Shown piece after piece: positions 20,828 through 21,493 of a DNA stretch of 29,793 nucleotides; position 1 is the stretch's first letter, and every line of letters starts with the position of its first letter. The DNA lies in the IMG/VR virus record IMGVR_UViG_3300035698_008857, positions 1 through 29,793 of that record. One strand, written 5' to 3'. The notes beneath the pieces were generated by a model. It did no database searches. It worked only from the letters and a program-made list of their open reading frames with translations, and was not told the origin of the DNA. Source of the stretch: a virus. Both the position numbers and the translations under genes were made by a program.

Positions 20828-21493
20828 TTATTTCAATAACCCGTTACTATTAATAATTGGTGAATAAAACCTATCCGCTTCTTTCATGTTCAAACTCTTT
20901 AAAGCCCTGGTAGTATCAGCATCATGCTTCAAAGAAGGCTCAAGCATACCAGGTAATACTTTATTCTTCCTATTCGCCACACATCCAGACATCTTGTTAA
21001 TCGAAAGACCCTTACCGACAAATACGGAAAGCCTCTCAGCCGTTTTGATAGGAGATTTCAAGGTGCTTTCAAATTTAAGATTAAGAACTCTGCAACCCCT
21101 ATCAGTGAGAATTTCCTTAATGATATGAGTATTCTTCCTGTTCCGTATAGAATTGGCCTTTATCTCAGAACTGGAATGATTTTTCTTACCACTTGGTATA
21201 AGTTTTTGAAACTTTGCCTGTGACCTGGCCTGTTGTAGATAATCACGCTGGCACCATATAAACTGATAATCATAATCATCACCAAATGGTAAATCACACA
21301 CATCTGGAAACAATATCTTGATTGCTGAATTGTCAACGTGATGTAACCATATCCAATTATCTGCTAGGCTGGTGGCTGCGGCTGTTTCGAATGAATAATC
21401 ATTGTCGGCGTAAACGTCCATTCCGCCCTTGTGTAGCATATTCATGGTGAGGGTGGTGCCGGATCTTGGCATACCTGTGATTACTGTTATCAT
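20828..21493 (-). CDS. Sulfotransferase-like P-loop protein between TerS and TerL, 221 aa
   Basis: The N-terminus 'TGMPRSGTTLTMNML' (residues 6-20) is the 5'-phosphosulfate-binding P-loop of sulfotransferases that use PAPS. At residues 83-91 there is R-D-Y then five residues to Ser, matching the RDP(x5)S 3'-phosphate-binding motif. Between them 'GGMDVYADND' and 'IKILFPDVCDLP' match a bacterial sulfotransferase-like family. The ATG overlaps the TerS stop as TAATG and TerL starts one base after its stop, so it is translated with the terminase. It might sulfate a surface molecule or act as a nucleotide-binding packaging accessory. The substrate is unknown. Confidence 0.75.
   Translation of the reverse strand: MITVITGMPRSGTTLTMNMLHKGGMDVYADNDYSFETAAATSLADNWIWLHHVDNSAIKILFPDVCDLPFGDDYDYQFIWCQRDYLQQARSQAKFQKLIPSGKKNHSSSEIKANSIRNRKNTHIIKEILTDRGCRVLNLKFESTLKSPIKTAERLSVFVGKGLSINKMSGCVANRKNKVLPGMLEPSLKHDADTTRALKSLNMKEADRFYSPIINSNGLLK

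Follow-up and report, generated by a model that had tools for sequence, protein, structure and literature searches.

A PAPS-type sulfotransferase-like gene between the terminase genes of a clade of uncultured tailed phages

Tyrosylprotein sulfotransferases (TPST1 and TPST2) are eukaryotic Golgi enzymes that sulfate tyrosines of secreted proteins. Diverse sulfotransferases have three essential residues in common: one PAPS motif contributes a basic residue, the other a serine, and a His or Glu located between the two motifs is the base (PMC6637879). In RaxST of Xanthomonas, a bacterial enzyme that also uses PAPS, these residue types recur as Arg, base and Ser (PMC6637879). Its gene adjoins the genes of its peptide and exporter and is not carried by a phage. 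In phages, sulfotransferases are mainly known as annotations with unclear function. According to PMC10580990, Sulfotransfer_3 genes occur in marine phages, for example in OM43 phage contigs, are similar to a Synechococcus phage enzyme and have an unclear function; the passages on them state no terminase linkage. RaxST and the marine phage enzymes were compared with our locus by description. Here we analyzed a viral DNA stretch of 29,793 nucleotides (the window), in which a sulfotransferase-like gene lies between the genes of the terminase small (TerS) and large (TerL) subunits. A small phage subfamily of this kind, or its place between TerS and TerL, was not found in the open-licence literature searched. 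Although the superfamily has been described before, neither the phage subfamily nor its linkage to the terminase appears to have been.

The gene (20828-21493, minus strand) is an intact open reading frame with an ATG start and encodes a protein of 221 amino acids, assigned to the PAPS-dependent Sulfotransfer_3 superfamily by Pfam, homology and an AlphaFold2 model. Its start is shared with the end of the TerS-like gene (21493-21906, minus strand, 137 aa, GTG start) in a TAATG sequence (21491-21495, minus strand), where the TAA stop occupies 21495-21493 and the ATG 21493-21491. The last base of the sulfotransferase stop codon is 20828, immediately followed at 20827 by the ATG of TerL (19376-20827, minus strand, 483 aa; phrog_2, 1.1e-18). 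Assignment of the TerS-like gene is weaker than that of TerL and was based on a phrog_2538 match (E 0.005) together with position. A Shine-Dalgarno-like AAGGA is found ∼9 nt upstream of the sulfotransferase ATG, within the TerS-like gene, and no obvious Shine-Dalgarno sequence was found for the TerL start, an arrangement that fits translational coupling. The initial annotation had reported the shared TAATG and the abutting TerL gene, both of which we confirmed in the sequence, and had proposed expression with the packaging motor. Co-location agrees with this proposal, and the gene order makes coupled translation with the terminase genes probable.

All named neighbours, including a scaffold and a head-closure protein, are encoded on the minus strand. 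The order is D5-type primase-helicase (26618-28186), DnaG-like primase (24677-26086), amidase endolysin (23435-23908), a DUF1353 protein upstream of TerS (21918-22325; PF07087, 4.7e-21), TerS-like gene, sulfotransferase, TerL, several small genes, P22-type portal protein (13080-15185; PF16510, 3.9e-148), scaffold, major head protein (10417-11658; phrog_283, 2.1e-67) and head-closure protein. A segment like G[VI]LPAM[ST]GVVTR and the motif KSYKR recur in two of the ORFs between TerL and portal (15820-16101 and 16954-18057, minus strand); they may represent a repeat in a decoration or tail protein.

Both PAPS motifs named in the initial annotation are present. The 5'-phosphosulfate-binding loop G7-M-P-R-S-G-T-T14 (21452-21475, minus strand) has the PRSGT[TS] form with a basic residue, and the 3'-phosphate-binding motif (21221-21247, minus strand) extends from R83 to S91. 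Phage homologs were collected by alignment-based scans of viral contigs. In 27 of 27 divergent homologs R10, G12, M17, L20, K59, R83 and S91 are invariant, and Glu36 (21386-21388, minus strand), which lies between the two motifs, is found in 26 of 27. By position, and following the rule of PMC6637879, Glu36 is the candidate catalytic base; Lys59 (21317-21319, minus strand) may likewise have a functional role. All three essential residue types are therefore represented in the family. Shuffling the protein 200,000 times never produced a P-loop of the GMPRSGTT kind, and such a loop was seen near the N-terminus in 0 of 1,933 ORFs of ≥100 aa in loci of TerL relatives, indicating that the motif is not a product of chance. 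The protein does not have the Walker A pattern GxxxxGK[ST], since all 27 homologs have Thr or Ser in place of the lysine.

The protein matched Pfam Sulfotransfer_3 (PF13469) above the gathering threshold (31 bits, cut-off 27), the match being carried mainly by residues 4-22. A motif of a bacterial family (GMPRSGTSLMMQM) was scanned against genome contigs and retrieved four proteins. These align with the window protein at 33%, 30% and 26% identity over ∼180 residues and at 32% over 92 residues. In the best alignment (33% over 181 aa) the whole domain of ∼185 aa is aligned and not the motifs alone. Three of the four (L155, L157, L158) are TPR proteins with a related sulfotransferase domain at the C-terminus, one of them with a clear N-terminal Phosphodiest domain. 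Together with the single-domain L156 they are the closest cellular relatives found (26-33% over up to 184 aa). In the bacterial relatives the domain is mostly part of a fusion and contains an NPxGY segment, whereas the phage genes are free-standing and the window copy has no NPxGY segment.

A profile of the family searched against PDB sequences placed tyrosylprotein sulfotransferases first (1.5e-6), and nearly all of the 56 matches were sulfotransferases. AlphaFold2 models were built for the window protein (pLDDT 82.9, pTM 0.79) and for the homolog from contig L250 (pLDDT 93.0, pTM 0.89). The best structural match was a TPST in both cases (Z 12.9, rmsd 3.4, 167 aligned residues and Z 12.9, rmsd 3.7, 164 aligned residues, respectively), with the PRSGTT loop and the R...S motif in alignment. 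Identity to the TPSTs is ∼17%, and the likeness is that of a best structural match only. Foldseek TM-scores were moderate (∼0.5), and hCINAP, a kinase-like P-loop protein that is not a sulfotransferase, reached Z 10.6-10.7 compared to 12.9 for TPST. Because the margin that separates TPST from other P-loop folds is modest, we base the identification on the combination of motifs, profile and fold. The predicted models of two members have the sulfotransferase fold, and the sulfotransferase-like identity that had been suggested from the sequence was thus borne out by structure prediction. While the window protein resembles the superfamily in both PAPS motifs, the candidate catalytic Glu and the predicted fold, it is smaller than the solved enzymes and belongs to a diverged subfamily.

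Close relatives were not recovered by protein or exact-peptide searches in phages, plasmids, viral contigs and genomes. Four different family members were used as queries against 50,697 phage records and retrieved no member of the family, and 72,556 plasmid records contained no close relative. A plain GMPRSGTT pattern scan returned mostly long, apparently TPR-fused, or unrelated sulfotransferases; two of 20 records tested had a terminase (phrog_2), in neither case near the motif gene. PAPS_reduct exceeded its cut-off in one of 25 sulfotransferase-bearing records and in 0 of 25 others, which argues against a general link to PAPS metabolism. The one record over the cut-off among these 50 is L159, where a sulfotransferase gene (7986-8579) is followed by the PAPS_reduct (PF01507) gene.

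The order TerS-sulfotransferase-TerL was found in six other uncultured viral contigs (L160, L248, L250, L251, L252 and L255), whose TerL proteins are 48-53% identical to that of the window. A phrog_4044 TerS is located upstream in all six; in L250 and L251 a single small gene separates it from the sulfotransferase. Sulfotransferase and TerL genes overlap or abut in six of the seven cases, window included; L255 has a gap. In the TerL tree the seven carriers fall within a clade of nine (support 100/98), a frequency biased upward because the six contigs had been found by searching with the sulfotransferase itself; scans based on TerL alone recovered L250, L169 and L170 from this clade. The presence of the gene required 3 label changes on the tree versus 6.8 in shuffles. 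The remaining two members, L169 and L170, do not have the gene on their contigs. In L170 a gene for 127 aa precedes TerL (5577-5957) and weakly matches phrog_1158, the family of the DUF1353 protein of the window. PF13469 was not detected in 50 records of TerL relatives (TerL identity ∼44-49%), and over ∼150 loci of TerL relatives the family profile had a single match, in L267, which duplicates the L250 contig. The suggested survey of terminase neighbourhoods thus had a divided outcome: the same position is held in six further contigs of one TerL clade, but the gene is absent from the loci of more distant TerL relatives outside it.

Within this clade the window TerS cannot be aligned with TerS of L160 or of the other five contigs, so the sulfotransferase has kept its place while TerS differs. 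The window protein groups with L244 and the six in the sulfotransferase tree (85/87). The sulfotransferase and TerL trees agree in placing the window outside the six, among which the sulfotransferase tree is weakly supported. Mean identity among the six is 39% for the sulfotransferase, 49% for TerS and 65% for TerL, with the PAPS-site residues fixed. We infer that such fast divergence around a fixed PAPS site would fit a constant cofactor and a changing acceptor. The GC content of the sulfotransferase gene tracks that of each genome over a range of 0.37-0.58. Judged from gene order and phylogeny, the gene is a long-held part of the packaging operon in distantly related uncultured tailed phages.

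Other members of the family have different locations. In L245, L247 and L264 the sulfotransferase gene follows a P22-type portal gene (L264 is cut by the contig end), and in L244 it lies upstream of a TerS-like gene. L164 and L165 have two tandem sulfotransferase-like genes (7374-7967 and 7989-8573) downstream of the major head protein gene. About 10 further members, including those of L161, L246, L249, L258, L259 and L261, are located in early or variable regions of seemingly temperate phages, several of them GC-rich. A link to packaging is thus not general in the family. In L161, L258, L260 and L162, ORFs that start with an IEWTDATWNP...GC..CYAE-like sequence and resemble Gp37/Gp68 were noticed within a few kb of the sulfotransferase.

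We consider it probable that the gene encodes a small soluble PAPS-dependent sulfotransferase, predicted to be catalytically competent, that a phage clade has kept between TerS and TerL as an accessory and not as a part of the motor. As read from the gene order, it would be transcribed with the late packaging and head operon and its translation coupled to both terminase subunits, so that the enzyme would be made when virions assemble. PAPS would be supplied by the sulfate-assimilation pathway of the host, and the sulfuryl group would be moved from PAPS to a cytoplasmic acceptor. Two candidate acceptors, a late phage protein and a cytoplasmic precursor of host envelope or glycans, are each put forward tentatively and were rated about equally likely. 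The initial annotation had listed a host surface molecule, a virion protein or a DNA end as things that the enzyme may modify. The position is accounted for most simply if the terminase operon of this clade acquired an accessory gene in a single event and has since passed it on together with TerL.

Close to an even prospect is the alternative that the gene is selfish or host-benefit (moron-like) cargo, incidentally placed where an insertion between TerS and TerL is tolerated, and that its chemistry is directed at the host (envelope, superinfection exclusion). It departs from the accessory-enzyme reading only by denying a use of late, coupled expression. Members of the subfamily in early or variable regions, and beside portal or head genes, are in line with cargo, as are the gaps of many relatives that are empty or hold an ORF of ∼65 aa and the unrelated small genes that also occupy the gap in L250 and L251. 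However, the sulfotransferase holds the same gap despite differing TerS proteins and deep TerL divergence, and passive cargo would not need starts that overlap or abut in nearly every case. That a head, portal or tail protein is sulfated by the enzyme while virions assemble, much as TPSTs act on secreted proteins, is possible but on the unlikely side. A packaging or head context is seen in at least 11 contigs (the seven with the TerS-TerL arrangement, L244, L245, L247 and L264), and TPSTs lead the structural and profile matches. On the other hand, TPST is the best among many near-tied sulfotransferases, and no virion gene was seen near the ∼10 early- or variable-region homologs.

Loss of activity would leave a degenerate protein kept for binding PAP or PAPS, or as a translational spacer for TerL. 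The length of 178-221 aa, shorter than characterised sulfotransferases, the missing NPxGY segment of the window copy and a possible dependence of TerL on sulfotransferase translation would be compatible with such a fate. Yet the candidate catalytic residues are kept across very deep divergence, and the conserved Glu survives the loss of the NPxGY segment, which makes degeneration improbable. Least credible, and to our judgment very remote, is a packaging accessory of the P-loop type, which the initial annotation had offered among its options, or a nucleotide kinase, with ATP or DNA ends instead of PAPS as the ligand. The location between both motor genes, the general P-loop architecture and the moderate scores of kinases in structure comparison would suit it, but all kinases rank below sulfotransferases, and the Arg and Ser of the 3'-phosphate site, which are typical of PAPS enzymes, do not vary. 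An identity as P-loop ATPase or kinase was rejected because the Walker A lysine is missing. This substitution, the early-region relatives and the terminase relatives that do not carry the gene leave a packaging function unsupported.

A further proposal, that the sulfotransferase is a functional partner of virion assembly and that its substrate is a capsid, portal, tail or packaging protein, sulfated in the bacterial cytoplasm while DNA is packaged, seems to us distinctly unlikely. If true, sulfation of a virion or packaging protein at this stage would add a new form of virion maturation. A subfamily that divergent phages carry between TerS and TerL, and others close to portal genes, offers a specific and testable handle on the purpose of phage sulfation, and would reveal either virion sulfation or a late modification of the host surface.
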